Shown one piece after another: positions 7,656-50,411 of a stretch of DNA of 64,000 nucleotides. The position numbers and the translations under genes were made by a program. The DNA comes from a virus: positions 1 to 64,000 of the IMG/VR virus record IMGVR_UViG_3300030117_007501; one strand, given 5' to 3'. The notes beneath the pieces are model-generated. The model worked only from the letters and a program-made list of their open reading frames with translations, was not told the DNA's origin and made no database searches. Each line of letters starts with the position of its first letter. The stretch's first letter is position 1.

Positions 7656-8358
7656 ATTGTTCGATGACGGCATCGGAGCCGTCGAGTATGTGTCTCACAT
7701 GGGCAGCGATTTAACTGTTGTTAACGCTGCTAGGGTTTCGTTTGGAGCTAACAAAGAGGAGTTGGACGAAAAGGATGTAAAGCTTATTAAGTATCTTATA
7801 AAGCACAACCACACTAGTCCGTTCGAGCACTGTAGTTTAACAATGAGGTTTACAGTGCCTCTCTTCATAAGAAGTCAGCACCACCGTCATCGAACTTGGG
7901 CATATAATGAGATTAGCAGGAGATATACTTCTGTTGATATGGAATTCTATGAACCAAGCGAGTTTAGAACTCAGCATAAGTCTAACAGACAAGCCAGTAA
8001 CGACGAGCTGATTAATCCTAATATCAGCCAAGTGGGTGGAAATAGGATATATCCATCGAGTGCTTATTATGCGTCAGAAGCGATAAAAAACCATCATACT
8101 AATAGCTTAAAGCTTTATGAGTCTCTTATCGGTTCTGGCGTATGTAGAGAGCAAGCAAGAGGAGTCCTTCCTCAAAATCTGTATACTCAGTATTATGGAA
8201 CTGTCAATCTTCACAATTTGTTGAAGTTCATTGGGCTACGCGTCCACAAGGGCGCTCAGTGGGAAATTCAGAAAGTTGCGCTCGCCTGCCTAGACATCGC
8301 GGGAAATTTTTTCCCAGAAGCTGTAGAGGCATATAGGGAAACATACACGGAGAAATAA
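7645..8358 (+). CDS. thyX: Flavin-dependent thymidylate synthase
   Basis: Makes dTMP from dUMP with FAD and methylene-folate. The ThyX signature RHR-x7-S is intact (R81-S91, within RHRTWAYNEIS). The 237 residues match the family. It overlaps groES by 11 bases and the lipoprotein by one (TAATG). Together with dUTPase and ribonucleotide reductase it gives the phage an independent thymidine supply. Confidence 0.95.
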   Translation: MRIELFDDGIGAVEYVSHMGSDLTVVNAARVSFGANKEELDEKDVKLIKYLIKHNHTSPFEHCSLTMRFTVPLFIRSQHHRHRTWAYNEISRRYTSVDMEFYEPSEFRTQHKSNRQASNDELINPNISQVGGNRIYPSSAYYASEAIKNHHTNSLKLYESLIGSGVCREQARGVLPQNLYTQYYGTVNLHNLLKFIGLRVHKGAQWEIQKVALACLDIAGNFFPEAVEAYRETYTEK

Positions 8359-10601: not shown

Positions 10602-10602
10602 A

Positions 10603-11859
10603 ATGAGAAAGATAATCATACTTTTAACACTTTTTATTGCATGTGAGGATAATGCGGTGCCTACAACGCCTGTGGAGCTTGATAGTAGAGTGAGAGATGT
10701 TTCGGCTCAACCAGTTGATGTGTTTGTTGTGCCTGTTCCATTCATTGATATGCTTGTTAGCAATGTCGATATGGCGTCCCAAGTATGCTCTGAAGAGCTG
10801 TGTGATGCTCTTGATAATGACTGTGACGGAAAGCAGGATGAGGGCACATTTAATTGCAATACGGCATGTGGAGCTGGGGTGGCTCAATGTAGTGGGGGTA
10901 CGCTTGTCGATTGTACTGCGCCACCAGTATTTGAAGAATCATGCAATCTTGTCGACGATGACTGCGACGGAACGGTAGACGAGCTTTTAGTTAGGTTTTG
11001 TTATTCAGGACCCCTCAAAGCTGCTGGCGTCGGAAATTGCTCTGAGGGAGAACAGGTTTGTGAAAATGGCACTTGGGGAAACTTCGAAAATGACGCTTGG
11101 GTGCAAGACTTGTGCTTAGGCGAAGTGCACCCTTCTGCAGAAGTTTGCGATGGATTGGATAATGACTGCGACGGCGTGGTGGATTTCGGGGAAGGCATCC
11201 GTAACACAGATATTCTTTTTATCGTTGATTGGTCGAGTTCGATGGGTGTGCGGGTAAGCGCCACTCTCGAGGCATTGCAGAGGTTCTCAACGGAGTTCGC
11301 AGACGAGCAGGTAATTCAGTGGGGGTTGATAGTGGGCCCAATACCTGTGTTTGACGAGGAGAACCCTAGAGACAGGTATGAGATGTTGAGGTTGGTTTCC
11401 GATATTTCTCCCTTCAATGACTTCCTTAATCGCTTTCTTGAGCTTGAAAGAATCCATACGGGCGGAGTTGAGATGCTTTTAGACGCTGTATATCTATCTC
11501 TGAGAAACGTTAGTCAGGTTCAGGTTCACGATTTAAATCAATCTAGGTGGACTGGTGGTGCCGTATCTTCGCCTCTGTTGTCTGAGTTTTTCGTTAATTG
11601 GAGGAATGGTGCTGATAAGATTATAGTTTTATTTTCAGACGAGCCAGAGAGAACTTATATGAATCCGCCAAACACAATACATGTTGTGGGCCCAGCGCTC
11701 ATGTCAGCTGAGAGGTTAAAGATGCACACTTTTGCACTGGGGTTTTATGGATGGGACGAGTTGGCTATAGCCACTGGGGGAAGAAACTTCGAATTGTCAA
11801 GTGATGCAGACAGTATGTATGACAACCTCATGACTATCGTTTCAGGAGCGTGCCAATGA
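10603..11859 (+). CDS. Second MopE-like/VWA lipoprotein
   Basis: Shorter relative of the gene before, 418 residues. Signal peptide with lipobox FIAC, then three DNDCDG-type motifs (near residues 66, 113 and 183) and a VWA domain with MIDAS start DWSSSM at about 208. The shared architecture and one-base gap point to duplication and loss of four motifs. Both may bind calcium or copper through the motifs and a protein ligand through the VWA domain; partner unknown. Confidence 0.87.
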   Translation: MRKIIILLTLFIACEDNAVPTTPVELDSRVRDVSAQPVDVFVVPVPFIDMLVSNVDMASQVCSEELCDALDNDCDGKQDEGTFNCNTACGAGVAQCSGGTLVDCTAPPVFEESCNLVDDDCDGTVDELLVRFCYSGPLKAAGVGNCSEGEQVCENGTWGNFENDAWVQDLCLGEVHPSAEVCDGLDNDCDGVVDFGEGIRNTDILFIVDWSSSMGVRVSATLEALQRFSTEFADEQVIQWGLIVGPIPVFDEENPRDRYEMLRLVSDISPFNDFLNRFLELERIHTGGVEMLLDAVYLSLRNVSQVQVHDLNQSRWTGGAVSSPLLSEFFVNWRNGADKIIVLFSDEPERTYMNPPNTIHVVGPALMSAERLKMHTFALGFYGWDELAIATGGRNFELSSDADSMYDNLMTIVSGACQ

Positions 11860-19134: not shown

Positions 19135-19409
19135 TGGGCTCGTTTGAAAGGAAACTGAAACGCAAGCAGAAGCGCAAAGAGCAAAAGGCGTTTGAAGACG
19201 GCATTGACATGATGGTAGACAAGATCCCAGAAGAGTGCAACGCTTGTCAGGCTGCTTTCGATAGAACAAACGTTGATCAACTAACAACCTGGCGGGTTGT
19301 AGTTCGAAAGAAGCAGAAAAAGGTTAACCTCTATTGTCCCCCGTGTTGGGATGGAGCAATTGAGACAATTAAAGAAATAGAAAAGGATTTGGAGAACAAA
19401 GATGTTTAG
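19134..19409 (+). CDS. Small zinc-ribbon-like protein
   Basis: 91 residues: a very basic N-terminal third, then CNAC and CPPC pairs about 35 residues apart, a likely four-cysteine zinc site. Could bind nucleic acid or protein; unknown. Start overlaps dut (TGATG), end overlaps guaB. Confidence 0.72.
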   Translation: MGSFERKLKRKQKRKEQKAFEDGIDMMVDKIPEECNACQAAFDRTNVDQLTTWRVVVRKKQKKVNLYCPPCWDGAIETIKEIEKDLENKDV

Positions 19410-20466
19410 TGATACTTTGTCGTTTGACGATGTGCTTTTGGTGCCTCAAAAGAGCGATATTGAGAGTAGGAAAGAGATAGATACAAGCTCAGTGTTGAAC
19501 GGTACAAGCTTTAGCTTGCCGATTATCTCAAGTCCGATGGATACCGTGACTGAGCTGGACATGATGTCAGCTCTTGCGACTGCGGGAGGTTTTGGCATCT
19601 TGCATAGATACAATTATATTGCCGAGCAGGTAAAAACAGTAAAGGCAGCAAAGCAGTTTGGGGCTACGAGTGTCGCTGCAGCAGTTGGCGTCACCGCTGA
19701 TTTCGAAGTGAGGGCGAAAGAGCTTGTTGACGCAGGAGCAAACATTATATGTATCGACGTCGCTCATGGGCACCACACCAACGTAGAGAGAGCGTTAAAA
19801 ACCCTTAAGGATGCTTTCGGTGACACGGTTACTATTATCGCAGGCAATATTGCAACAGACGATGGATATGCTGACTTATGCAGATGGGGAGCAGATGCAG
19901 TCAGGGTTGGCATCGGAGGAGGGAGTATCTGCTCAACGAGAATTCAGACAGGGCACGGATTAAGTACGTTTCAGTCAATTATGGCGTGCAGCATGGCTAG
20001 GACAGCTGCGGCTTCTCCGTTTCATTCTTCAGAGAAGTATGATTTCGATCCAAAGCCCATCATCGCTGATGGGGGGATTCGATCATCTGGAGACATCGTG
20101 AAAGCTATAGCTGCAGGTGCAGACTTTGTTATACTGGGTTCGATGTTGGCAGGAACATCAGAAGCGCCGGGCACTGTGTTTACCAATGGTTCCGGAAAGT
20201 CGTATAAGGCATACAGAGGAATGGCGTCTAGAGAGGCACAGGAGGACTGGAGAGGGACTGCTAGCTCTCTTGAGGGTGTAGCTACCACCATACCCTATAA
20301 AGGCAGCGTGAAGCCAATACTGGAAGATATCCACCAGAATATCCGAAGCGGCTTTTCGTATAGCGGTGCAAGAAATATCAAAGAGTTGAGAGATAACGCA
20401 AGGTTTGTGCTACAAACCGTAAGTTCTCAAACAGAAAGCGGAACACACATTCTCAATGTCAGGTAA
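19402..20466 (+). CDS. guaB: IMP dehydrogenase (lacking CBS domains)
   Basis: TIM-barrel purine enzyme, 354 residues; IMP to XMP, the first step to GMP. The catalytic loop reads [13 protein letters not shown] with the nucleophile cysteine, preceded by SSPMDTV and followed by DGGIRSSGD and [15 protein letters not shown] normally has a pair of CBS regulatory domains near residue 100; these are absent, as in GMP reductase. The loop spelling favours IMPDH, the missing CBS pair and the flap spelling could fit GMP reductase. Confidence 0.85.
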
Positions 20467-22219: not shown

Positions 22220-22502
22220 AGCAGTTATGTGGAAGGTTAGCAAAGAAAGCGATACTTATGTTTTTCAACTAACCTCTGGTAGTCAGAGACTTCTCAAGAA
22301 AGCAATTAAGGAAGTTGGGGGTAGAGAGTCTGGAAACGGATATGACGCTTTGCGAAACAAAAAGATAGTTTTATTGCAAAGGGACTTTGAAGACAAAGAA
22401 TCTCTAAAGGAGTTTGCAAATGGGCTATCCTTTAATTTATCAGAAATATCTAAAACCGGCAAAGAAAGGATCATCAATGCCAAAAGAAAAAAGAAAAACT
22501 AA
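22206..22502 (+). CDS. Unknown small protein before clpP
   Basis: 98 residues, basic C-terminus, no motif recognised. ATG chosen because AAAGGGAGGA is 8 bases upstream; the frame is open farther back inside the preceding gene. Overlaps genes on both sides. Confidence 0.65.
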   Translation: MAEIEAVMWKVSKESDTYVFQLTSGSQRLLKKAIKEVGGRESGNGYDALRNKKIVLLQRDFEDKESLKEFANGLSFNLSEISKTGKERIINAKRKKKN

Positions 22503-23178
22503 GAAGAAAGAGAAAAAGGAAGTAGAGTTGAAGGAGCAGGAGGTTGTAGTTGAGGATCCGGAAGAGGAGTTTCTGGATTCAGAAGAGAGATTCATCATAA
22601 TCAACAATATTGAACAGCCAACAAGCGATGGTTCGAGCTTAATTAGGAGCATTTCCTTGTACGGCGACTTGACAGAGGACAACGCCTCTGACATTGTACA
22701 ATCTTTTATGTTTTTGAGGGAGTTGTCGCACAGGCTCCAACTTAGTGGTGATGAAGAGGAGTGCAAGCCTATTGAGTTCCTTATTTCATCACACGGCGGC
22801 GTCGCCGCTGAAATGTTCGCCATCTATGATACCATGAGGATGGTACGTCAGTCTTGTGAGGTGAGTACCATTGGGATGGGGAAGGTTATGTCCGCTGGTG
22901 TTGTCCTGTTGGCAGCAGGAACAAAGGGAAAGAGAAAGATTGGAGCCAACTGCAGAGTTATGATACACAGTGTTAATGGCGGATATCACGGAAACCTAAC
23001 AAACATGGAAAATGAAATCGAAGAAGTTAGATGGATTCAGGAAAGGTACGTAGAGTGTCTTGCCGCTGAGTCGAACATGACAGAGAGAGAAATTAAGAAA
23101 TACCTCAAAAAGCACGTGGACGTTTATCTATCGGCAGAAGAGGCTGTCGAGCTGGGAATTGCGGACATTATTGTTTAA
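22477..23178 (+). CDS. clpP: ClpP-family serine protease
   Basis: Barrel-forming protease, 233 residues. Catalytic triad visible: S139 (VMSAG), H164 (MIHSV), D215 (HVDVYLSAEEA); ISSHGG at 104-108 is the oxyanion-side GG turn. A lysine/glutamate-rich N-terminal tail of about 35 residues is longer than in bacterial ClpP. No Clp ATPase is in the window, so it may use a host unfoldase or act as a prohead-type protease (some phages use ClpP-fold maturation proteases). If the latter, it would be the enzyme cutting the capsid-targeting leaders; unproven. Confidence 0.9.
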   Translation: MPKEKRKTKKKEKKEVELKEQEVVVEDPEEEFLDSEERFIIINNIEQPTSDGSSLIRSISLYGDLTEDNASDIVQSFMFLRELSHRLQLSGDEEECKPIEFLISSHGGVAAEMFAIYDTMRMVRQSCEVSTIGMGKVMSAGVVLLAAGTKGKRKIGANCRVMIHSVNGGYHGNLTNMENEIEEVRWIQERYVECLAAESNMTEREIKKYLKKHVDVYLSAEEAVELGIADIIV

Positions 23179-24284: not shown

Positions 24285-25862
24285 ATGTCTAAAAAATTTG
24301 CATCCGGAGCTAATCTCCGACAGAAGATACTTGATGGAGTTAATGTCCTGGCGGACAACGTAGCTTCAACACTAGGACCACGTGGCAGGAATGTGATAAT
24401 TCACGAAAAAGGAAAACGCCCCGTGATCACGAAGGATGGAGTCACTGTGGCTAAGTTTATTGAATTCGAAGACGAGTTCATGAACGCTGGCGCCCAAGTG
24501 GTTAAGCAGGCTGCAGCCAAGACTAATGTCGACGCTGGCGACGGCACAACCACATCTACAGTTCTTGCGCGTGCAATATTCAATGCAGCTTCTGATCATA
24601 TTGTGGACGGCTCTTCAGCACCCATTGAGATTAAGAGAGGGATTGATAAAGCTGTGAACGCAGTTAACGAGCTGCTGTTGGAATCAGCCCGCCCAATTCA
24701 AAGCGCGGATGATGTTGCCCATATCGCAACCATCTCCGCTAATGGCGATGAAGATATCGGGAACTTAGTAGCTCTCGCTGTTGATAAGGTGGGCAAGGAC
24801 GGTTCTATCACCATTGAAGAAGCGCGATCGGTGGATACAAGTTTGGACTTAATGGAAGGCTTCAGGTTTGATTCGGGGTACGCAGCTACAGCATTTATTA
24901 CTGATGATAGGAGGGGCGTGGTTCGCTACGAGGATCCCATCTTTCTCATTACTGATGAAAAGATTGAAACTGTAGATCAGATATTGCCAGCCCTTGAGGT
25001 AGCGGCTCGCGAGTCTCGCCCCTTTGTCATTGTTGCTGACGACATCGAAGGACAGGCATTGGCGGCACTCATCATGAACTCCATGAGGGGCACCATGAAA
25101 GTTGCGGCAGTTAAGGCTCCAAGGTATGGTGAAGAGCGTCGAGGCATTATGAGCGACTTAGCAATTTCGGTTGGTGCAAAGTACTTCCGACGCTCCGCCG
25201 GAGACAAACTTAAAGAAGCAAACCTCACAGACTTCGGCTCAGCGAAGACAGTAGAGATTGAAAAGGGCACAACCACTGTAGTCGGAGGTAACGGAAATCT
25301 TGAAGAGGTGGAAAACAGGATTGATGCACTGAAGGCGGAAATTGAACAAACAGACTCCCTGCACCAAGCGGAGCGAGTACAGGACAGGGTTACCCGCCTA
25401 GCCTCCGGCGTCGCTGTTATTAGGGTTGGGGCTGCAACGGAGATTGAGATGATAGAGAAGAAGCATAGAATCGAAGACGCACTAGAGGCTGTCCGGTCGG
25501 CTCAACTTGAGGGGGTTATTTCTGGTGGTGGCACGGCGCTATTAATGTCGTCAACAAAGCTTGTGGTAGACACTGAAAACGAACACCAGGAATCTGGTGT
25601 GGATATCGTCCGACGTGCACTACAGGAACCTATTCGTCAAATGGCGAGTAATTGTGGCATGGATGTAGAAGACACACTGCAAACTATCACCGAAGCTTCG
25701 AACGGGATGGGAATTAATTTTGCAACCGGAGAGCTTGTCAACATGTTTGATGTAGGTATCATCGATCCAGTAAAAGTGACAAGGAGTGCCTTGCGAAATG
25801 CTGCCTCTGTAGCCGGAACTCTTTTGACAACTAACCATGCTATTATAGAATTGGAAGACTAG
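24285..25862 (+). CDS. groEL: GroEL-like chaperonin
   Basis: Group I chaperonin, 525 residues. ATP-binding TLGPRGRN and DGTTTSTVLA, the hinge PRYGEERR, ISGGGTAL and the VGIIDPVKVTR segment are in place. The flexible GGM-rich C-terminal tail of bacterial GroEL is missing; it ends IIELED, which may enlarge the chamber for a big capsid protein (inference). Ribosome site GAGAGGAAAA. It is monocistronic-like with its own promoter; groES lies 17 kb away. Confidence 0.96.
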   Translation: MSKKFASGANLRQKILDGVNVLADNVASTLGPRGRNVIIHEKGKRPVITKDGVTVAKFIEFEDEFMNAGAQVVKQAAAKTNVDAGDGTTTSTVLARAIFNAASDHIVDGSSAPIEIKRGIDKAVNAVNELLLESARPIQSADDVAHIATISANGDEDIGNLVALAVDKVGKDGSITIEEARSVDTSLDLMEGFRFDSGYAATAFITDDRRGVVRYEDPIFLITDEKIETVDQILPALEVAARESRPFVIVADDIEGQALAALIMNSMRGTMKVAAVKAPRYGEERRGIMSDLAISVGAKYFRRSAGDKLKEANLTDFGSAKTVEIEKGTTTVVGGNGNLEEVENRIDALKAEIEQTDSLHQAERVQDRVTRLASGVAVIRVGAATEIEMIEKKHRIEDALEAVRSAQLEGVISGGGTALLMSSTKLVVDTENEHQESGVDIVRRALQEPIRQMASNCGMDVEDTLQTITEASNGMGINFATGELVNMFDVGIIDPVKVTRSALRNAASVAGTLLTTNHAIIELED

Positions 25863-30248: not shown

Positions 30249-30277
30249 CTTGCATGCAAGAAATGCGTGCTTATATT
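30249..30277 (+). promoter_or_regulatory. dnaK promoter with palindrome over the -35
   Basis: TTGCAT, 16-base spacer, TATATT. The -35 lies within CTTGCATGCAAG, a perfect 12-base palindrome, a likely operator. Confidence 0.65.
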
Positions 30278-30315
30278 ATATAAAGTCCGGGAACACGAAA
30301 AGGAGAAACTTGAAA

Positions 30316-32205
30316 ATGTCAAAAGTTATCGGAATTGATTTGGGAACAACAAATAGCGCCGTCGCCGTAATGGAGAGCGGAAGTCCAAAAATAATCACAA
30401 ACGAGGAAGGAGCTAGAACTACTCCATCGGTGGTTGGGTATCTGGAAAGTGGAGAAAGAGTGGTAGGCAATCCAGCCAGAAGGCAGGCTGTCACGAACGC
30501 TAAAAACACCGTTTACTCTGCGAAAAGGTTTATGGGAATGAATTACGAGGACGTAACGAAAGAGGCGTCCGAGATGCCATATGATATAGTAAAATCTCAG
30601 TCAGGATCCTGTGAGATTGTGTTGAATGGAAAAGGACACGCACCTCAAGAAATCAGCGCCCAGGTTCTCATCAAGCTTAAGGCAGCGGCAGAATCTTATC
30701 TGGGGGAGGAAGTAAAAGAGGCAGTCATTACGGTGCCCGCTTACTTCAACGATGCTCAGAGGCAAGCTACTCGCGACGCTGGACAGATTGCGGGACTTGT
30801 GGTTAAGAGAATCATCAACGAACCAACAGCAGCAGCGCTAGCATATGGTTTGGACAAGCAGGAAGAGAAGAAAGTTGTTGTTTATGATTTGGGTGGTGGC
30901 ACTTTTGACGTATCTGTTTTGGAGATTGCCGATGGTGTAGTTGAAGTTCTGAGTACAAACGGAGACACGCACTTAGGTGGCGATGATGTCGATAGGGTTT
31001 TGATTGATTGGATCGTCGACGAGTTTAAGAAAGACTCGGGCATCGATGTATCCAAAGATTCGATGGTGATGCAGAGGCTGAGAGAAGCGGCAGAAAAAGC
31101 TAAGATAGAACTGTCGAGCACACAGCAAACGGATGTAAACCTTCCGTTTATTACTGCAGATGCCTCAGGTCCTAAGCACTTACAGCTTACTCTTGGGCGC
31201 CCAAAGTTTGAACAAATGATAGATGAACTAGTCAGAAAGACTATCGAACCAGTCAAGAACGCGCTAGAGGATGCTGGCATGTCATCGTCAGAAATAGATG
31301 AAGTTATTTTAGTTGGCGGCTCTACTAGAATCCCGTGCGTGCGAAAGGCAGTAGAGGACTTTTTCGGAAAGCAGGCAAACTCCTCTGTAAATCCGGATGA
31401 GGTTGTTGCTCTTGGAGCAGGAGTCCAGGGCGGCGTGTTTACGGGCGAGGTTAAGGACTTGCTTCTCTTGGACGTGACGCCCCTGTCTTTGGGTATCGAG
31501 ACTATGGGTGGTGTCATGACGAGGCTTATTGATAGAAACACTACGATTCCATGTTCTAAGTCGCAAGTGTTCACAACTGCCGCCGATAATCAGCCTGCCG
31601 TCGACATTAAGGTTCTTCAAGGCGAGAGAGAGTTTGCAGCGGACAACAAAGTCCTAGGAGTATTTAAGCTTGACGGTATTCCGCCTCTCCCTAGGGGAGT
31701 TCCGCAAATCGATGTCAAGTTCGATATTGACGCTAATGGGATTGTAAGCGTGATAGCCACTGACAAGGCTACGAACAAAGAGCAGAGAATTATCATTGAA
31801 AAGTCAGGAGGATCCCTGTCTAAGGGCGAGGTAGATAGGATGGTTGCCGAGGCGAAAGCTAACGAATCGAAAGACAAAGAGCGCCGTCAGCAGGTAGAAG
31901 ACAGAAATAACCTTGAATCTACTGCGTTTCAAGCTGAAAAGCTTCTTAAGGAAAACCCAGACAAGATTTCAGAGGCTACCGCTGCCAACGTGCAGAGAGC
32001 TATCGACTCTGCAAAAGCTTGCCTGACTCAAGAAAGCACTCCGGAACTGATAAAGAAGGAGCTTGGTGCCTTAACTCAGGCAATGCAGGCAGCAGGGAAA
32101 GAGATGTATGAATCAGCAGCGCAAAGCCAACAACCCCCAACAGAGGAGCCAAAGAATTCAAGTGAGGACGACGACGTTGTGGACGCTGAGTTTAAGGAAG
32201 TTTAG
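30316..32205 (+). CDS. dnaK: DnaK (Hsp70) chaperone
   Basis: ATP-driven chaperone, 629 residues. [27 protein letters not shown] and the linker-proximal [17 protein letters not shown] are intact, and the C-terminus [11 protein letters not shown] is that of bacterial DnaK, so this is a near-complete bacterial-type gene and possibly a fairly recent capture. ATG chosen with AAGGAGAA 10 bases upstream; 22 extra in-frame codons upstream lie over the promoter. DnaJ and GrpE are not here, so host partners are needed. Confidence 0.97.
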
Positions 32206-38183: not shown

Positions 38184-38381
38184 ATGGAAGAGTACGAAAT
38201 AGGGGATTTGGTAGTCTCGTATCTGTTCAACACGTCTATGCTTGAACCGGAGCTGTTGCAGTTTGGAGTCATAGTCAACGTCAATAGAAATCTCAGAGAC
38301 ATTATGGTTCTTGACAATGCTGGATACAAGAGATGGTACCCCTGTAGACGCTGGCGCATCTTAAGGAAGAAGAACACGTGA
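38184..38381 (+). CDS. KVGD-family small protein
   Basis: 65 residues: EYEIGDLVVSYL, QFGVIVNVN, ending basic. Family member with a four-residue lead-in. Confidence 0.66.
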   Translation: MEEYEIGDLVVSYLFNTSMLEPELLQFGVIVNVNRNLRDIMVLDNAGYKRWYPCRRWRILRKKNT

Positions 38382-38467
38382 TGGATTTTTTGATATCGTA
38401 CGGACTGACGTTAGCTTTGTTAGTTCTGCTCGGAGAACTCTTTTTTGGTGTGTCAAAAAAGTCTTGA
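38381..38467 (+). CDS. Tiny one-helix membrane peptide
   Basis: 28 residues: LTLALLVLLGELFFGV helix, short basic tail. Starts on the last base of the previous gene; its stop codon is part of the next -35 box. Confidence 0.4.
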   Translation: MDFLISYGLTLALLVLLGELFFGVSKKS

Positions 38468-38492
38468 CAATTTAAAAAAAATCATTTAAGAT
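38464..38492 (+). promoter_or_regulatory. uvsE promoter
   Basis: TTGACA, 17-base spacer, TAAGAT. Confidence 0.72.
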
Positions 38493-38516
38493 AATAAAAA
38501 AGTTTGGAGATTTCAT

Positions 38517-39443
38517 ATGAATTTTGGGTATGCATGTATCAACATGACGTTATCTGACTGTCCAAAGTCAAAGAGAGTAACGACAAACCGTTCGATGGTA
38601 AAGCGCACTTTCTTGTCGCGCGGGCTTCAATATGCTTCTGAGCTGGCATTGCAAAACGCAAAAGACTTGCTCAAAATACTAGAGTGGAATGAGAAAAACA
38701 ATATCAAGTTTTTTCGTATGTCGTCAGACATGTTCCCGTGGGCATCTGAGTACAGACTGTCTGACTTGCCAGACTACCATGACATAGCATACCATCTCGA
38801 CGTTGCTGGTGCATATGCGACTCGTAACGGACATAGGATTACTTGTCATCCCGGCCCATTCAATGTGCTCGGCTCCCCCCGCGCGGAAGTTGTAGAGAAA
38901 ACCATTCGTGAGCTGGAGTTGCACTCAGAAATCTTTGACTTGATGGGCTTCTATGATGCGACACCATACAACAAGATAAACATTCATGTCGGCGGCACTT
39001 ATGGCGGCGACTTTGGCAACACTGCCCTCCGCTGGTGCGAGAATTACTTAAGACTGTCTCCCAATTGTCAGAACCGACTGACACTGGAGAATGACGATAA
39101 GTCCAGCATGTGGAGTGTTAGAGACATCTATGACAGAATCTATAAGGTTGTTGGTGTGCCAATTGTGTTTGATTACCACCATCACAGATTTTGTACCGGT
39201 GGACAGACAGAAGAAGAGGCACTAAAGTTGGCAGCTTCTACGTGGAAGGGTGTCAAGCCTGTTGTGCATTTGTCAGAGTCTCGTGCTCTTGAGTTCGACG
39301 ACGCAACAATTCGTCCTCAAGCTCATTCAGATTTTATTAACAATCCTATAAAAAACTATGGACAAGAGCATGATATTATGTTAGAATGTAAGAAAAAAGA
39401 GTTAGCCCTTCTAAGGTACAGAAAGATAATGGAGAACTTATAA
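38517..39443 (+). CDS. uvsE: UV damage endonuclease (UvdE family)
   Basis: TIM-barrel nuclease that nicks 5' to UV photoproducts, 308 residues. Opening FGYACINMTL, then RMSSDMFPW, a metal-binding NIHVGG, LENDD and FDYHHHRF match UvdE order. A DNA-repair gene suited to a phage exposed to light. Ribosome site TTGGAGATT. Confidence 0.95.
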   Translation: MNFGYACINMTLSDCPKSKRVTTNRSMVKRTFLSRGLQYASELALQNAKDLLKILEWNEKNNIKFFRMSSDMFPWASEYRLSDLPDYHDIAYHLDVAGAYATRNGHRITCHPGPFNVLGSPRAEVVEKTIRELELHSEIFDLMGFYDATPYNKINIHVGGTYGGDFGNTALRWCENYLRLSPNCQNRLTLENDDKSSMWSVRDIYDRIYKVVGVPIVFDYHHHRFCTGGQTEEEALKLAASTWKGVKPVVHLSESRALEFDDATIRPQAHSDFINNPIKNYGQEHDIMLECKKKELALLRYRKIMENL

Positions 39444-39664
39444 TGAATGTAGGAGACATGGTTCGTGCCCCAACCCCAGAGGGATGGAACGGATTTCCTT
39501 TGGAAAAGAATTACTATGGATGGGAAGGCAAGGTGGGCATACTCTTAAAGTTTGAAGACGCCTACGGAAAAAAGAATAGTCGCGCAAAGGTTCTCATCAG
39601 TGAAACAGGGCAAGTGTGTACTTTTGTAACTAACACTTTAACTGTGATTCAAAAAGCAGTATAA
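39443..39664 (+). CDS. KVGD-family small protein
   Basis: 73 residues: MNVGDMVRAPT, KVGILLKFE and a TLTVIQKAV tail. Overlaps uvsE by one base (TAATG); a tRNA promoter lies in its 3' end. Confidence 0.68.
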   Translation: MNVGDMVRAPTPEGWNGFPLEKNYYGWEGKVGILLKFEDAYGKKNSRAKVLISETGQVCTFVTNTLTVIQKAV

Positions 39665-39665
39665 T
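39638..39665 (+). promoter_or_regulatory. tRNA promoter
   Basis: TTAACT, 16-base spacer, TATAAT; about 8 bases before the tRNA-Arg 5' end. Confidence 0.6.
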
Positions 39666-39673
39666 ATAGTAGA

Positions 39674-39750
<77 letters not shown>

Positions 39751-39752
39751 AT

Positions 39753-39825
39753 GCTGGCGTAGCTCAATTGGCAGAGCAGCTGATTTGTAATCAGCAGGTT
39801 GAGAGTTCGAGTCTCTCCGTCAGCT
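39753..39825 (+). tRNA. tRNA-Thr (anticodon TGT)
   Basis: Acceptor GCTGGCG pairs with CGTCAGC, anticodon loop TTTGTAA, T loop TTCGAGT; CCA not encoded. Reads ACA. Two bases after tRNA-Arg, probably cotranscribed. Confidence 0.94.
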
Positions 39826-39840
39826 TAGAGATGTTTTTTG

Positions 39841-40032
39841 ATGATGTGTGAATTTGAAATAGGTGATTTGGTTCAGTTCAAGAACAACAAAGCACAAGTT
39901 GGTTTGATAATCGAAATCAGAGATTCTGCCGATAGCACGTTTCAACATCCATACGCCATCATTCTCTGGGCAAACACAGGTAAAAAATCAATTGAATTTA
40001 CTTCGGAGTTAACCTATGCTGAAAAAAGGTGA
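39841..40032 (+). CDS. KVGD-family small protein
   Basis: 63 residues: CEFEIGDLVQFK, QVGLIIEI, IEFTSEL. First of a run of small family genes after the tRNAs. A second ATG one codon on is equally possible. Confidence 0.66.
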   Translation: MMCEFEIGDLVQFKNNKAQVGLIIEIRDSADSTFQHPYAIILWANTGKKSIEFTSELTYAEKR

Positions 40033-40201
40033 TAAAGTTAGAATATATGATACCAACACCCACACTGAATGTTGTTATGGGGAGGGTGAAATACTCAGAG
40101 TCTTAACTAGAAAAAAGAGTAAGGCTTATAAACTATTGCACAAGGGACAAGTCCTTGTTTTAGATGAGAGGTTTTGGAGTTTAGAGAAATGCAAAAGTTA
40201 A
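40016..40201 (+). CDS. KVGD-family small protein
   Basis: 61 residues: MLKKGDKVRIYD, GEGEILRVL, LDERFWSLE. Overlaps the preceding gene by 17 bases. Confidence 0.64.
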   Translation: MLKKGDKVRIYDTNTHTECCYGEGEILRVLTRKKSKAYKLLHKGQVLVLDERFWSLEKCKS

Positions 40202-40383
40202 AAGTATTGAAACCAGGAGACTTGGTTGTTCATCGACACAAGAAACTTAAGCATGGAGTGCTGATATCTGTGGACTCTCAACCCATTTTCGATGGCTCTG
40301 ATTGCGTGTGTCAAGTTCTCTTTGCGGGCAGTTCGCAATCAGTGCCAGCGTTGTTCTCGAACTTGGTAAGGTTCAACTCGTGA
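40189..40383 (+). CDS. KVGD-family small protein
   Basis: 64 residues: LKPGDLVVHR, KHGVLISVD, and a variable C-terminal half. ATG overlaps the gene before by 13 bases. Confidence 0.64.
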   Translation: MQKLKVLKPGDLVVHRHKKLKHGVLISVDSQPIFDGSDCVCQVLFAGSSQSVPALFSNLVRFNS

Positions 40384-40580
40384 AAATTGGCGACTTAGTG
40401 ACGCTCTCTGCGTATGGCAAAAGCCTCAAGATGTTTGAGTGCATAGATAGGGACGACGTAGGGTTGATATATCACATGAATCTCAGTAGCTTCTTTGTAA
40501 GGTGGTGCAAGTCTGGCAAGCGCACATGGAAAGAGAGATTAGTCCGAAAAGATGTCAAATATGCAAAAAAGACATTTTGA
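40380..40580 (+). CDS. KVGD-family small protein
   Basis: 66 residues from GTG: MKIGDLVTLS, DVGLIYHMN, a basic C-terminus. The open frame extends upstream but the overlap pattern supports the GTG at the KIGD motif. Confidence 0.64.
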   Translation: MKIGDLVTLSAYGKSLKMFECIDRDDVGLIYHMNLSSFFVRWCKSGKRTWKERLVRKDVKYAKKTF

Positions 40581-40827
40581 GATAGGCGATATGGTTCTCT
40601 TCGACTCTCCTCTGCTGCCTTATGACAAAAAAATGGGGGTGGTTGTCGACAAGATACACTACATGCAGGAAACTCACTATCTTGAAATGCCGGCACACGG
40701 ACATCTATCAGAAGAATTGTTGCACAGTCAAGAGTATAGTTGCTGTGTTCTCCTACTCGGCACCTCAGAGAAAATAATGGTTAGATCGAAATGGATAAAA
40801 CTCGTTTCCCCAGTCAAAAAAACTTGA
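40552..40827 (+). CDS. KVGD-family small protein
   Basis: 91 residues (88 from a later ATG): FEIGDMVLFD, MGVVVDKI, a longer variable middle, then IKLVSPVKKT; its stop overlaps the next -35. Confidence 0.64.
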   Translation: MSNMQKRHFEIGDMVLFDSPLLPYDKKMGVVVDKIHYMQETHYLEMPAHGHLSEELLHSQEYSCCVLLLGTSEKIMVRSKWIKLVSPVKKT

Positions 40828-40852
40828 CAATTCAAAAAAAATCTGATAAATT
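40824..40852 (+). promoter_or_regulatory. Promoter before the first array
   Basis: TTGACA, 17-base spacer, TAAATT. It would drive genes to 43110 as a single transcript. Confidence 0.7.
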
Positions 40853-40885
40853 ATAAAAACAATACAACTTCATCGGGAATAAAAA

Positions 40886-41107
40886 ATGATAAAGAAAGGC
40901 GATTATGTTTCGTATGGTAGCGAGTTTCGTGCCATTGTTGTTGGGCATCCTCACACCGTTGAGAGGTTTGATTCCAATGGTTATGGAGGCTTGTTCGTTC
41001 CCGTTGCGAAGGTGCTTATAGTGCACACCCGTCGCCTCGCCGATTCAAAGTTTATTGGCAAAGAGAAGATAGCAAATTTACGCTCGCTAAGAAGGCTAAA
41101 GGCGTGA
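40886..41107 (+). CDS. KVGD-family small protein
   Basis: 73 residues: MIKKGDYVSYG, RAIVVGHPH, basic tail LRSLRRLKA. First gene of the 40.9-43.1 kb transcript. Confidence 0.65.
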   Translation: MIKKGDYVSYGSEFRAIVVGHPHTVERFDSNGYGGLFVPVAKVLIVHTRRLADSKFIGKEKIANLRSLRRLKA

Positions 41108-41111
41108 AGCT

Positions 41112-41309
41112 ATGGGCGTGTACATGAGAGAGTCAGAGTTGCAAGTAGGCATGCTCATCCTGTACAACGGAGATCCTGCACTGGTGGTTAAGACATCCAG
41201 TGTGTGGGATGGTATGCTAACGCTCTTGAAGCGCGACGGAACCACAGCATACATTAATTCTCTATACATCAAGAGGGATTGGGTGCTTGGAAAAAATAAC
41301 AAAAAATGA
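41112..41309 (+). CDS. KVGD-like small protein
   Basis: 65 residues: LQVGMLILYNGD, LVVKTSSV, TTAYINSLYI. The GD is replaced by GM; divergent. Confidence 0.58.
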   Translation: MGVYMRESELQVGMLILYNGDPALVVKTSSVWDGMLTLLKRDGTTAYINSLYIKRDWVLGKNNKK

Positions 41310-41473
41310 AACAGGGAGACTTGGTTAGATATATAGATGCAGTATCTCAACTTTTTGGCTTGGATGGCATCTACATTGTAAGAAGAGTCGAGCTTAAAAA
41401 TGATTGGGTGTTCGTCTATGGAGTCGACGTGCCAATCCAAATACAGGTTATGGAGGTTATAAGTGAGGCTTAA
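41306..41473 (+). CDS. KVGD-family small protein ending ISEA
   Basis: 55 residues, start MKQGDLVRYI and end MEVISEA, the same C-terminal word as the array genes. ATGA overlap. The junction it forms with the next gene is decayed: GTGAGGCTTAAG in place of GTGAAAGTCGGTGA, giving a lipoprotein start instead of MKVGD. Confidence 0.62.
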   Translation: MKQGDLVRYIDAVSQLFGLDGIYIVRRVELKNDWVFVYGVDVPIQIQVMEVISEA

Positions 41474-41699
41474 GTTATTTTTCGTGGTACTCGCGAGTAT
41501 CGTCTTGTGTGGTTGTCCAGTAGAAGAAAACCTCTCTTCTTGCAGAAGAGTGATGGTGTGCGAGCAAGAAAAAGAAATGTATTGCGACAAGGCATTGAAC
41601 GGTTGCGGTGAGGACTGTCACTATTATGTGATGGAGAGCTGTTGGGAGAAGTGCGATGAAGGTGGGAGACTTGGTGAGGTGGGCGCCATCGTGCATTGA
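41463..41699 (+). CDS. Small cysteine-rich lipoprotein inside the array
   Basis: 78 residues. Signal peptide with lipobox LCGC (C17); mature part has eight further cysteines. GTG start sits where an array gene would begin, so the lipoprotein appears to have been inserted at a junction. Followed by the next array gene within its end. Confidence 0.66.
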   Translation: MRLKLFFVVLASIVLCGCPVEENLSSCRRVMVCEQEKEMYCDKALNGCGEDCHYYVMESCWEKCDEGGRLGEVGAIVH

Positions 41700-41847
41700 C
41701 GAGAGCGCATGGGAGAAATGGGTGGGAGTGATTGTAAGTATGCCGAAAGAAACTCCCCAAAGAGCTAGAGTCCTCTGGAACAAAGAAGGGGCGTTAGTAA
41801 CCCTTAGTTTTAAAAGAGACATGGAGGTAGTCAATGAAAGTCGGTGA
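41656..41847 (+). CDS. KVGD array gene A1
   Basis: 63 residues: MKVGDLVRWAPS, VGVIVSMP, RVLWNKEG and the end MEVVNESR. Its last bases give the next start. Overlaps the lipoprotein gene by 44 bases in another frame. Confidence 0.7.
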   Translation: MKVGDLVRWAPSCIDESAWEKWVGVIVSMPKETPQRARVLWNKEGALVTLSFKRDMEVVNESR

Positions 41848-42043
41848 CTTAGTGAAGTTCGACCGTATTAACGGCCACACCCGCGATATCAATGACAAAG
41901 TGGCTCTCTATCTGGGTGAGGCTTTCATTCATCGCTACGACGGCGATGTCATCCAGAACCACAAGGTTCTGTTGCTTGGAGAATCAACGCCGAGAATCAT
42001 TGACGTTGGCTTGCTTAGGTGGATGAGGAGATACCCAGAATGA
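41834..42043 (+). CDS. KVGD array gene A2
   Basis: 69 residues: MKVGDLVKFDR, KVALYLGEAF, HKVLLLG, ending RRYPE instead of ISESR. The ATG lies in the dual-coding junction. Confidence 0.7.
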   Translation: MKVGDLVKFDRINGHTRDINDKVALYLGEAFIHRYDGDVIQNHKVLLLGESTPRIIDVGLLRWMRRYPE

Positions 42044-42219
42044 AAGTCGGTGATTTAATAGCAGATAAAGAGTACACTGAAGATGTTGGCATCATTGTCT
42101 ATAAAGATGAGCATGGCGATGTTAATGCCTATAGGGTACTAACTCCCCAAGGTAAGCTGGATTATTTTTCAAAAGATTACATTGAAAATGACTGTGAGGT
42201 AATCAGTGAAAGTCGGTGA
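42040..42219 (+). CDS. KVGD array gene A3
   Basis: 59 residues: MKVGDLIADK, DVGIIVYKD, YRVLTPQG, ending CEVISESR. ATG overlaps the stop of A2 (ATGA); extension upstream by seven codons is possible but not preferred. Confidence 0.7.
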   Translation: MKVGDLIADKEYTEDVGIIVYKDEHGDVNAYRVLTPQGKLDYFSKDYIENDCEVISESR

Positions 42220-42385
42220 TTTAGTGATGACTCCTCGGTATGGAACGTGGTATATTATCGTCGCAAAGCGTGAAGATCTTTCATCTTCTCACGGAGGACA
42301 AGTGTTCGACATTGTATCTACTGACTTAACGTATAGACAAGTGTTAAACGAAAGATTCTTGGAGGTGATAAGTGAAAGTCGGTGA
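42206..42385 (+). CDS. KVGD array gene A4
   Basis: 59 residues from GTG: MKVGDLVMTPR, WYIIVAKRE, ending LEVISESR. Both ends lie in full junction words, making this the clearest cassette. Confidence 0.72.
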   Translation: MKVGDLVMTPRYGTWYIIVAKREDLSSSHGGQVFDIVSTDLTYRQVLNERFLEVISESR

Positions 42386-42575
42386 TATTATTAAGTTAAC
42401 TCGGGGCACATATAATCACTTCAAACTGAAAAGTTATGTGGCTACCTTAATTAAAAAGCTACCAAGGGACGACGAATACGAATATGATTGGCTAGTCCTT
42501 GCTGACGGAAAATTCATCGCTCTCGGTAGACAAATAGAGTACAATGGTGCGGAGGTAATCAGTGAAAGTCGGTGA
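42372..42575 (+). CDS. KVGD array gene A5
   Basis: 67 residues from GTG: MKVGDIIKLTR, YVATLIKKL, WLVLADGK, ending AEVISESR. Both ends in junction words. Confidence 0.72.
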   Translation: MKVGDIIKLTRGTYNHFKLKSYVATLIKKLPRDDEYEYDWLVLADGKFIALGRQIEYNGAEVISESR

Positions 42576-42747
42576 TTTGGTAAAATATAACAATACCGCT
42601 TATCAATCAGAAGAAGTCGGTATCATTCTACAGAGGGACTCACTATATGACGAGGGTCGTCCACCTTATTCTTATAGGGTTCTTTGGAGAGATCATAACG
42701 AATCCAAGAGAAACTGGTACGGTTATGATGAGTTGAGAAAGCTGTGA
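42562..42747 (+). CDS. KVGD array gene A6
   Basis: 61 residues from GTG: MKVGDLVKYNN, EVGIILQRD, YRVLWRDHN, ending ELRKL; the ISESR end is lost and only the downstream start remains. Confidence 0.7.
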   Translation: MKVGDLVKYNNTAYQSEEVGIILQRDSLYDEGRPPYSYRVLWRDHNESKRNWYGYDELRKL

Positions 42748-42896
42748 AAGTCGGTGATATTAGCGACTATGAGATGCAGAAACTGCGAGAGTTCGCACAA
42801 AAAAAGATAGTCAAAAATCTCAGAGAGATTAGCAAGCTGAAAGAAGAGATATACTGGTTGGCAAAGGAGAGGGACAAATATGCCAGAAAAGGATAA
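42744..42896 (+). CDS. KVGD array remnant with coiled coil
   Basis: 50 residues from GTG. Only MKVGDI is family-like; after it comes a heptad region (LREFAQKKIVKNLREI). It looks like a recombined cassette: array start fused to an unrelated coiled coil. Confidence 0.55.
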   Translation: MKVGDISDYEMQKLREFAQKKIVKNLREISKLKEEIYWLAKERDKYARKG

Positions 42897-43110
42897 ATCA
42901 ATTAGGGTTGGAGATTTGGTTGGAAAAAGATATAAGGGTTTGCCTGGAGTGCTTTGCCCTGGAATAGTAGTGAAAAAAGAAGCCGCATACCCAGGCAACC
43001 CCAATGACAGGTGTTTAGTAATGTTCTCTCATTGTCACCCGCGCGTCGCAACGCCGTTTGCCAAGAAGTATTGGCAACTTGAGAAAGACTTGGTGCTTTT
43101 GGCTCGATAA
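42880..43110 (+). CDS. KVGD-family small protein
   Basis: 76 residues: SIRVGDLVGKRY, GIVVKKEA, RCLVMFSH. Overlaps the remnant by 17 bases; last of the first array. Confidence 0.66.
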   Translation: MPEKDKSIRVGDLVGKRYKGLPGVLCPGIVVKKEAAYPGNPNDRCLVMFSHCHPRVATPFAKKYWQLEKDLVLLAR

Positions 43111-45991: not shown

Positions 45992-47065
45992 ATGGCAGTT
46001 GACTTTAAGACTTTTTCCAATGTTGTCAAGCACGTAACGGCAGTAAAGAAGCCGGTACTTTTGCGTGGACGTCACGGCATTGGCAAATCTACCGTAGTCT
46101 ATCAGTACGCTGATAGCATTGGCATGCCTATCGTCGAGCGACGCGCATCGCAGATGACTGAGGGAGATTTAGTGGGACTGCCCTCAATTGAGAACAGCAG
46201 TACGCAGTTCAACCCACCAGACTGGTTCAAGCAGGCGTGCGATGAGCCTGTGGTTCTGTTTCTGGACGAGGTTGACAGGGCAACGCTCGAAGTCCGTCAG
46301 GGTATTTTCGAGCTTACTGATAGCCGCAAGCTGAATGGGCACATTCTTCACCCGGATACGCTTGTCTTCGCCGCTGTAAATGGCGGCGAGCACGGTGAGC
46401 AGTATCAGGTTGGAGAGATGGATCCAGCTGAGCTTGACAGGTGGACTGTGTTCGATATTGAGCCGACGACAGAGGATTGGCTAACTTGGGCTACAGGCAA
46501 GGTTCACGGCATGGTGTGGGACTTCATTAACCATAACCGTAATCACCTTGAGCATCTCGACGACTACGAGCCAAACAAGGTTTATCCTTCTCGACGTTCG
46601 TGGGAGCGACTGAGTGAGTGCCTCTCTGAGAGTGGTGTCTTGGATGCCGAAGAAACTTCGGTTCTCTATACTCTGACGAGCGCCTTTGTTGGCTTCGAAG
46701 CAGCGGTAGCATTTAACGACTTTGTTGCCAACTACGAGAAGCAGGTGTCTGTTGAGGATATCCTCGTGCACGGTAAGATTGAGAGAACAAAGGACTTCGG
46801 TATCAACGAGCACACTGCGCTCATTGACAAGTTCGACTCAGCCGCGTCGTTTGAGGAGGAGCTTGAGCAGGACAAGATTGACAATCTTGCTCGATACTTC
46901 TTGAACCTCCCTTCCGAGGTTGCGATGAAGTTGTGGACTGTGTTGGGTTCTGGTGAGATTAATAACACGATTAAGCTGCACCAGGCAACTGTTGACGGCA
47001 AGTCTGTCAGCGATTACATTGTTACGATTCTTGCTGGAGAGCAAGAAGAAGAGAAGGGGAGTTGA
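45992..47065 (+). CDS. MoxR-type AAA+ ATPase
   Basis: 357 residues. Walker A GRHGIGKS (26-33), Walker B VVLFLDEVDR (87-96), sensor 1 asparagine N130 (AAVNGG), and a C-terminal helical lid. MoxR enzymes work with a VWA-domain partner as metal-dependent chaperones or remodellers; that partner is at 47363, after one small lipoprotein gene. TTTAGGAGATAT precedes ATG. Confidence 0.92.
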   Translation: MAVDFKTFSNVVKHVTAVKKPVLLRGRHGIGKSTVVYQYADSIGMPIVERRASQMTEGDLVGLPSIENSSTQFNPPDWFKQACDEPVVLFLDEVDRATLEVRQGIFELTDSRKLNGHILHPDTLVFAAVNGGEHGEQYQVGEMDPAELDRWTVFDIEPTTEDWLTWATGKVHGMVWDFINHNRNHLEHLDDYEPNKVYPSRRSWERLSECLSESGVLDAEETSVLYTLTSAFVGFEAAVAFNDFVANYEKQVSVEDILVHGKIERTKDFGINEHTALIDKFDSAASFEEELEQDKIDNLARYFLNLPSEVAMKLWTVLGSGEINNTIKLHQATVDGKSVSDYIVTILAGEQEEEKGS

Positions 47066-49296: not shown

Positions 49297-49325
49297 TTGA
49301 TTTTTAAAAAAAAGAAATATATAAT
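49297..49325 (+). promoter_or_regulatory. Promoter of array B
   Basis: TTGATT, 17-base spacer, TATAAT, drives the second KVGD array. Confidence 0.8.
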
Positions 49326-49350: not shown

Positions 49351-49557
49351 ATGAAAGTTGGTGACTTGGTTCAATGGAGCGACACCAGCATTGCCTGGCA
49401 CCTCGCTAAAGGTTACCCTGTGCAGGATTTTCTTCACCATCGTCAACGAGGGATAATTTTCAGCGAGAACAAGAAGTATGTTTTCGTGTATTGGGGCGAC
49501 GGAGAAAGAATGGCAGAAGAGCGGGATTGGCTGGAGGTTGTCAGTGAAAGTAGGTGA
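49351..49557 (+). CDS. KVGD array gene B1
   Basis: 68 residues: MKVGDLVQWSD, QRGIIFSEN, VFVYWGDGE, ending LEVVSESR. AAGG shortly before ATG; an earlier ATG six codons up is possible. First cassette after the promoter. Confidence 0.72.
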   Translation: MKVGDLVQWSDTSIAWHLAKGYPVQDFLHHRQRGIIFSENKKYVFVYWGDGERMAEERDWLEVVSESR

Positions 49558-49702
49558 TTTGGTGAGACACAAGCGTAGAAACTGGAACGCTCTTATCGTG
49601 ACTGTTGATCAGCCTCGAAGACACATTAAGATTCTCGATGAGGAGGGCAGTGTGTTCTGGGAAAGAATGAGAGATTACGAGGTTATCAGTGAAAGTCGGT
49701 GA
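49544..49702 (+). CDS. KVGD array gene B2
   Basis: 52 residues, the shortest full cassette, from GTG: MKVGDLVRHKR, ALIVTVDQ, IKILDEEG, ending YEVISESR. Confidence 0.72.
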   Translation: MKVGDLVRHKRRNWNALIVTVDQPRRHIKILDEEGSVFWERMRDYEVISESR

Positions 49703-49907
49703 TTTAGTTATAACTAAGGCATCTATCGGAGACGGGAATCGTCGGCTTGCGCTGCGAGAAGGCGTAGGCGTCTTGTTTCAAGCTGATTACAACCTAATGA
49801 TACTCTGGCCAAATGGCTTCATAGAGAACTCATGCGTCTATTTTGAGCACGAATTGGAGGTTGTCAGTGAAAGTCGGCGATTTAGTAAAATACAGGATGT
49901 ATCATAA
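49689..49907 (+). CDS. KVGD array gene B3 with lost stop
   Basis: 72 residues from GTG: MKVGDLVITKA, VGVLFQAD, LMILWPNG, then EVVSESR and nine more residues (RFSKIQDVS). In its junction the TGA stop has become CGA, so the protein runs 27 bases on inside the next gene. A single-base change in an otherwise conserved word. Confidence 0.72.
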   Translation: MKVGDLVITKASIGDGNRRLALREGVGVLFQADYNLMILWPNGFIENSCVYFEHELEVVSESRRFSKIQDVS

Positions 49908-50049
49908 CAACCTACAGTCACTCTTGGGAATTGTTTTGCGCACGAGTAGGGACAAAGAGAGAGTAAGAGTTCTTTGGAATCGAATCGACAGAAATGATGA
50001 CGTGATGGATTGGGTAGAAGATTTGGAGGTTGTCAGTGCAAGTCGGTGA
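49867..50049 (+). CDS. KVGD array gene B4
   Basis: 60 residues from GTG: MKVGDLVKYRM, LLGIVLRT, VRVLWNRID, ending LEVVSASR. Its start still works although the upstream stop was lost. Confidence 0.72.
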   Translation: MKVGDLVKYRMYHNNLQSLLGIVLRTSRDKERVRVLWNRIDRNDDVMDWVEDLEVVSASR

Positions 50050-50227
50050 TTTGGTTAAGTGGACTGATGGACATGGCGAAGAGTTTTACGCCCTAGTGGT
50101 TAAACGTGATGGCTGGGCGACACTAATAAAGTGGACTTCTTCCGGCGAAGTAGAAGACGCTGACTACTATATCGAAAGCGACGTCGCAGAGAATGAAGTA
50201 TGGGAGGTAATCAGTGAAGCTCGGTGA
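50036..50227 (+). CDS. KVGD array gene B5
   Basis: 63 residues from GTG: MQVGDLVKWTD, YALVVKRDG, TLIKWTSS, ending WEVISEAR. K-to-Q in the start word. Confidence 0.72.
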   Translation: MQVGDLVKWTDGHGEEFYALVVKRDGWATLIKWTSSGEVEDADYYIESDVAENEVWEVISEAR

Positions 50228-50411
50228 TATGGTTCAGCCGCTTGGCTCATGCTCTGGCATGCTCGGCGCTGTTCGGTGCAAACTAGCACTGGTTGTGGAG
50301 AAGGTTAACCCACACCATGATCAGGTTAAGATTGCCTGCCTATGTGGTTCTAAGTGGGCAATGAAACATAATGTACGCTCTATAGAAAAAAGAGAGGATA
50401 TCTGGGAATGA
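50214..50411 (+). CDS. KVGD array gene B6
   Basis: 65 residues from GTG: MKLGDMVQPLG, LALVVEKV, KIACLCGS; ends without ISESR, so the array stops here. Confidence 0.7.
   Translation: MKLGDMVQPLGSCSGMLGAVRCKLALVVEKVNPHHDQVKIACLCGSKWAMKHNVRSIEKREDIWE

Follow-up and report, generated by a model that had tools for sequence, protein, structure and literature searches.

Operons of interlocking small genes in uncultured marine phages are joined by a short sequence that is translated in two frames and repeated from gene to gene. We refer to this ~32 nt, dual-coding sequence, about TTGGAGGTNATCAGTGAAAGTCGGTGATTTGGT, as the "word", and to each small gene of such an array as a "cassette". In alignments of related contigs, cassettes are inserted, deleted, reordered, replaced, and transferred between phages, and the edges of these changes coincide with the word. 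We put at roughly 84% the probability that homologous recombination or strand slippage, mediated by the word, moves whole cassettes. Here, we describe the arrays in the first 64 kb (the "window") of a 158,282-bp viral record, their relatives, and the possible mechanism of their rearrangement.

The window contains two arrays, both on the plus strand. Array 1 consists of seven overlapping small ORFs arranged head to tail at 41656–42896, as established from the sequence and an ORF check. Cassette 1 (41656..41847; 63 aa) has an ATG start, a head with variant codons (ATGAAGGTGGGAGAC), and the tail EVVNESR. Cassette 2 (41834..42043; 69 aa) belongs to a nine-member family in relatives and ends without the word. 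Cassette 3 (42040..42219; 59 aa) starts with ATG and overlaps its upstream neighbor by 4 nt; like cassettes 4 (42206..42385; 59 aa) and 5 (42372..42575; 67 aa), which start with GTG, it ends in EVISESR. Cassette 5 has a homologue in the closest relative, L127. Cassette 6 (42562..42747; 61 aa) has a GTG start and an end without the word, and the last cassette (42744..42896; 50 aa), also with a GTG start, carries the MKVGD head on a helical, coiled-coil-like body that is not SH3-like. The full word, i.e., a GGAGGT-like site, a start codon, a KVGD head, the TGA of the upstream gene, and a 14-nt overlap, is present at four of the six junctions. The first of these (41821..41853) has an ATG start at 41834 and the upstream tail EVVNESR; the other three (42193..42225, 42359..42391, and 42549..42581) have GTG starts at 42206, 42372, and 42562, each with the upstream tail EVISESR. 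The first-pass annotation had stated that each cassette carries the signals needed to attach the next. This is true of the four full junctions, whereas those at 42040 and 42744 have the head half only, with a 4-nt gene overlap (ATGA/GTGA), meaning that the word is not universal.

Array 2, overlooked in the first-pass annotation, has six genes and five full junctions at 49351–50411. Its cassettes are 49351..49557 (68 aa, ATG start, tail EVVSESR), 49544..49702 (52 aa, GTG, starting with the word, tail EVISESR), 49689..49907 (72 aa, GTG), 49867..50049 (60 aa, GTG, tail EVVSASR), 50036..50227 (63 aa, GTG, tail EVISEAR), and 50214..50411 (65 aa, GTG), which ends without the word. The third extends 27 nt beyond the usual stop, with the tail EVVSESRRFSKIQDVS. 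With up to three mismatches allowed, the word occurs nine times in the window, every time at an array junction, and not once in 100 shuffles; across the 158,282-bp record, strong matches are confined to the two arrays. The claim of a dual-coding word linking tandem tiny genes is thereby confirmed, and the system is larger than had been described. A MoxR-type AAA+ gene (45992..47065, plus strand) lies between the arrays, outside the system, and serves as a neutral backbone marker. Consensus scanning, the only basis for these assignments, gave sigma-70-like promoter matches upstream of the array 1 gene run (40824..40852) and just upstream of array 2 (49297..49325), both on the plus strand. In a scan of the window, no terminator stem was found at the word, and weak internal promoter matches were not tied to it.

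Other small genes lie close to array 1. A gene at 41306–41473 ends in MEVISEA-stop, and its last 11 nt are shared with the gene at 41463–41699, which starts with GTG and encodes a Cys-rich, lipoprotein-like product (MRLKLFFVVLASIVLCGC...). The latter gene is unrelated to the cassettes and is preceded by the ribosome-site half of the word. Small genes that start with IGDLV or VGDxV but do not have the word surround the array (38184–41473 and 42880–43110), suggesting that the KOW-like family extends beyond the arrays.

The word comprises the last β-strand and stop codon of the upstream gene together with the ribosome site and opening codons of the downstream gene. The L-E-V-I codons of the upstream gene, TTGGAGGTNATC, also serve as the ribosome site for the gene that follows, with the GGAGGT that precedes the overlap encoding E-V. 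The 14-nt overlap, RTGAAAGTCGGTGA, reads M-K-V-G-D for the next gene in one frame and S/N-E-S-R-stop for the previous gene in the other; for example, GTG AAA GTC GGT GAT encodes M K V G D downstream and S-E-S-R-stop upstream. A profile of 680 junction heads, from −13 to +19, gives about TTGGAGGTNATCA[G/A]TGAAAGTCGGTGATTTGGT. In loci fetched independently of the word, the Gly codon of the head is GGT in 94% of 318 heads that lie in an open upstream frame, as compared with 69% of 120 others (p = 8e-11). Since GGT supplies the upstream TGA, its enrichment where the upstream frame is open indicates that dual coding is a constraint. GTG starts likewise account for 63% of heads where the upstream frame is open and 12% where it is not. 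Where the Gly codon is GGC (49867) or GGA (41656), the upstream gene continues past the usual stop, as predicted; the lipoprotein-like gene 41463–41699 runs through the head of 41656 in this way.

The tail also follows the word. ESR is found at the end of 257 of 281 cassettes with the word behind them but only 39 of 330 others, and almost all of these 39 still end on a degenerate word. The ESR tail comes from the word, not from a need of the protein; the EVISESR tail as a protein requirement was considered and rejected on these counts.

Constrained ends raise an alternative explanation, that the arrays grew by tandem duplication and divergence, with ends kept alike by the strands of the fold and by translation signals, and with no exchange. 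Dual coding, which constrains the ends, is compatible with this. However, the Val codon of the head is GTC in 82% of junctions (84% in loci not selected by the word) as compared with 20% inside genes, a preference that neither reading frame demands and that exceeds the needs of the stop codon or the protein. A test for homogenization of the ribosome-site part of the word gave an identity only slightly higher within arrays (0.61) than between contigs (0.58).

Measured from word to word, cassettes encode 62 ± 6.5 aa (range 48–86; 463 sequences). The median dN/dS of their interiors is 0.16 (170 pairs), with no cluster above 1, reflecting purifying selection on the middles. Cassettes are, therefore, very probably translated and functional; this ratio and the ribosome sites point to use of the GTG starts, and we infer that every start is translated. 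AlphaFold2 predicts five-strand barrels for 41656 (pLDDT 86.8) and 41834 (pLDDT 93.4). A profile of 100 cassettes matched KOW domains of NusG (2xhc, E = 3.7e-5) and Spt5 in the PDB, and the best Foldseek matches include Spt5, NusG, HspQ, and Tudor, with TM about 0.7 and E not below 0.008; the structural matches of 41834 (Mfd, CarD, and chromo-barrel) are weaker. The earlier assignment of the cassettes as SH3-like thus holds for the main families, which have the fold and the G-D-x-V start of a KOW/NusG-type SH3 barrel, but not for every cassette. Scans against Pfam, PHROGs, and PADLOC returned nothing convincing other than two captured genes (see below): no Pfam family exceeded the cut-off for the barrel cassettes, and PHROGs matches were weak. 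The top BFVD matches include many 50–85-aa proteins with accessions in one run (A0A516M7xx/MBxx) and at most 31% identity to 41656; the run appears to represent one or two deposited virus genomes with many paralogous small SH3-like proteins. A role in host transcription or translation would be a guess from the fold.

The KOW/SH3 barrel is the commonest kind of cassette, and many middles fall into this one loose family (a cluster of 226), as growth by duplication would have it. The same caps, however, are found on unrelated proteins. One cassette of L177 is a complete GIY-YIG domain (MKVGD/WWFYVLLCADG...KEEII/NESR, with slashes at the edges of the caps; Pfam E = 1e-16), and one of L050 is a DUF2061 membrane protein (E = 9.5e-8). 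Other non-barrel cases include a Cys-rich protein of L149 and, with the head only, proteins such as the coiled-coil-like 42744–42896. The extra residues of the GIY-YIG cassette are exactly those encoded by the word, indicating that the caps travel as DNA. The first gain of caps by a foreign gene would need an illegitimate event.

Relatives were fetched by means of the AAA+ gene between the arrays (80 loci, 92–59% identity), which avoids selection on the word, with a further 20 loci fetched by means of the adjoining metallopeptidase/VWA gene. After near-identical contigs were collapsed, 83 locus groups remained; 46 of them have arrays in which two or more full junctions fall inside a span of about 10 kb, and 33 have three or more. 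Scanning IMG/VR with the core word as a pattern gave at least 120 stretches, many with 3–10 copies, and the word can be repeated eight or more times consecutively within an operon. Two array contigs are inside bacterial bins (L226, MAG Deltaproteobacteria SP124, and L227, MAG Acidiferrobacteraceae RS826); these are probably phage DNA, or else a hint of the host. Searches of named phages with the word, cassettes, and a cassette pair gave no credible match (at best 19 exact bases, E = 0.4), and the array region had no blastn match to them.

Comparisons between close relatives reveal changes of single cassettes. L016 and L018, whose flanks match at 99.5% over 8.4 kb and at 100% over an adjoining 2.6 kb, differ by a single 176-nt cassette. 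The extra cassette, in L016, is bracketed by an exact 20-nt repeat of the word, ATGAAAGTCGGTGATTTGGT, and its neighbors are intact whether or not it is present. L147 and L149 (99.3% over 5.2 kb) differ by a single 214-nt unit between copies of AAGTCGGTGATT; in L149, this unit encodes the 75-aa Cys-rich protein, which has the typical head and ends in ESR. L105 and L135 (flanks 99.65% and 99.9%) have two common cassettes in reversed order, in addition to differing ones; the common cassettes are 96–97.5% identical, i.e., less alike than the flanks. A similar change of order is seen for L065/L082, and replacement is seen for L147 and L148 (97.7%), whose cassettes differ up to the word. Not every change involves the word: an indel between L088 and L124 is unrelated to it, so some indels in these contigs arise independently.

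Cassettes are also shared across larger distances. Single cassettes are 91–99% identical between phages with ~67–72% marker identity, with alignment edges at words. L132 19816–19988 matches L133 15217–15389 (91.9%) over exactly one cassette, and L135 14454–14630 matches L142 3608–3784 (91%). L128 7214–7576 and L130 15250–15612 are 99.2% identical over 363 nt with a marker identity of 67.5% and a right edge at the word; L158 339–585 and L184 1–247 are also 99.2% identical, with a marker identity of 71.9% and a left edge that is the contig end of L184. Edges of array homology, each counted once, fall within 10 nt of the word in 37 of 39 cases at ≥90% identity (null 32%, p = 2e-16) and in 16 of 16 at ≥97%, positions inside the word itself being below the resolution of the HSPs. 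When homologous cassettes occur in different phages, the right-hand neighbor is also homologous in only 1 of 17 pairs. In a separate observation, L128 7867–8049 and L129 4544–4720 have a common first half (DKGWKKYRKSMGIVV) and differing second halves, which suggests that exchange also occurs within cassettes.

Rates of retention are a weaker indicator. At 80–84% marker identity, the proportion with a counterpart is 14% for cassettes, 35% for the remaining small ORFs, and 72% for large ORFs; at 72–76%, the values are 7%, 16%, and 50%, respectively. The contrast between cassettes and small ORFs is modest and no main argument, because the small-ORF control includes spurious ORFs. The excess turnover of cassettes is only about twofold and vanishes at 90–97% marker identity (53% of cassettes, 52% of small ORFs), suggesting that small genes turn over anyway.

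These comparisons bear on the duplication explanation described above. L204 has a recent tandem duplicate of a cassette (98.9%), and duplication is a likely contributor to array growth. As a full account, it is refuted by the order swaps, the single-cassette indels, and the 91–99% identical cassettes between ~70% identical backbones, and we consider it highly improbable. The first-pass annotation proposed gain, loss, and shuffling of cassettes at their shared ends, and the comparisons support it: whole cassettes show indels, changes of order, replacements, and transfers whose edges fall on the word, and related phages have differing gene sets rather than one fixed set. The arrays may serve as a diversity system, the purpose that it assigned to them.

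Assemblers could, in principle, generate such differences by misjoining cassettes at short repeats. All loci are metagenome contigs, the word provides exact repeats of up to 20 nt, and single events may be chimeras. Nevertheless, the same arrays recur in near-identical contigs whose assemblies came from separate datasets (L127/L140, 20.9 kb at 99.9%; L164/L165; L178/L179; and L147/L151), reading frames are open across all junctions, and dN/dS is low. Moreover, shared cassettes differ by 1–9% between contigs and so do not derive from the same reads, and a simple misjoin would not yield the pattern of L105/L135, where cassettes are less alike than flanks. Assembly artefact is the least probable of the explanations considered, with only a very slight chance of accounting for the arrays.

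Exchange mediated by the word would operate as follows. Nearly every cassette starts and ends with the same ~20–32 nt; homologous recombination or strand slippage would pair two words, within one genome or between co-infecting phages; entire cassettes would be deleted, inserted, replaced, or reordered as a result; and both neighbors would keep their start, ribosome site, stop, and frame after the exchange. Exact repeats of 12–20 nt are present at the observed events. An integron-like system, in which a site-specific recombinase recognizes the word and moves cassettes, would also produce sharp edges at one short conserved site and precise indels. However, no gene matching the tyrosine integrase (PF00589) or resolvase (PF00239) families was found in the 158-kb record, which is possibly incomplete, and this favors homologous recombination at the word. 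A possible 5-bp inverted repeat in the word (AATCA/TGATT) is not conserved, with position −2 being C in 50% and A in 31%. Coding and ribosome-site functions account for the word, in which no conserved fold is apparent, and we therefore regard a site-specific system as very unlikely.

With a RecA-like gene at 71–1150 and no site-specific recombinase found, the general recombination of the phage presumably drives the exchange of cassettes through the word. Selection may favor turnover because the proteins would encounter rapidly changing host factors. A broader reading, to which we give an even chance, is that capture and exchange are free of a dedicated recombinase, with translation signals as the recombination site, a cassette pool common to a marine phage group, and the probable effect of diversifying host-takeover or counter-defense proteins. 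If so, any gene that gains the five-residue head and four-residue tail would become a plug-in cassette.

The remainder of the window encodes RecA-like, 5′–3′ exonuclease, DnaB-like, class II RNR, PolIII alpha, GroEL, DnaK, ClpP, UvdE, and MTase proteins; comparison of window genes with named phages gave distant relatives only. Two adjoining genes at 8358–11859 match the MopE-type Cu-binding repeat (PF11617), which is unusual in a phage and a possible clue to the host. The phage also carries an IMP dehydrogenase (19402–20466), a ClpP-like protease (22414–23178), GroEL (24285–25862), and DnaK (30250–32205).

Shuffling of phage genes at short common sequences is already known. PeSL elements (promoter early stem-loops) of T4-type phages were reportedly described by Arbiol et al. 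in 2010 and Comeau et al. in 2014 as "mobile regulatory cassettes". As far as one account goes, PeSLs are short conserved repeats that mediate shuffling among related phages in the variable small-gene region of T4-type genomes (PMC4503421). The word resembles them in that it recurs at the borders of genes in a region subject to shuffling, and alignment edges fall on it. PeSLs are reportedly non-coding, intergenic promoter-terminator units. The word, by contrast, is translated in two frames and supplies a ribosome site, start, and stop in place of a promoter and terminator; it lies inside two overlapping coding frames rather than in an intergenic early promoter with a stem-loop terminator, and, unlike a PeSL, it leaves five head and four to seven tail residues on the proteins. 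In lambdoid and other phages, homologous recombination at short boundary sequences has been proposed to swap modules, although conserved boundary sequences cannot be found at most module borders (PMC3029335). Those sequences border different functional modules, whereas the word recurs within one operon.

Integron cassettes are promoterless single genes in arrays that are gained, lost, and reordered by a tyrosine integrase acting at a folded attC site. The phage arrays similarly gain, lose, and reorder single-gene cassettes, but no integrase was found, an attC-like folded site is not evident, neighboring cassettes overlap by 14 nt, and each is translated from the end of the previous gene. Whole-gene replacement with a dN/dS of 0.16 looks unlike a diversity-generating retroelement, and the cassettes differ from the SH3-like barrels of KOW and NusG C-terminal domains in being free-standing proteins of 50–85 aa. 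The first-pass annotation knew of no described counterpart; our literature search, which was incomplete in coverage, likewise turned up no account of these arrays, although PeSLs are close in kind. Nothing that it covered describes a joint that is dual-coding, made of translation signals, and reiterated along an operon, with cassettes exchanged among the members of a phage group and unrelated genes captured. Such a joint provides a mechanism, readable from the sequence, by which large phages quickly turn over their tiny, uncharacterized genes. It predicts cassette boundaries to the base, and offers a handle for mining a large pool of uncharacterized small phage proteins, which probably act on the host, as well as captured known genes (GIY-YIG and DUF2061). 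Overlapping genes are commonly regarded as hindering rearrangement; here, the overlap can make an operon freely rearrangeable.
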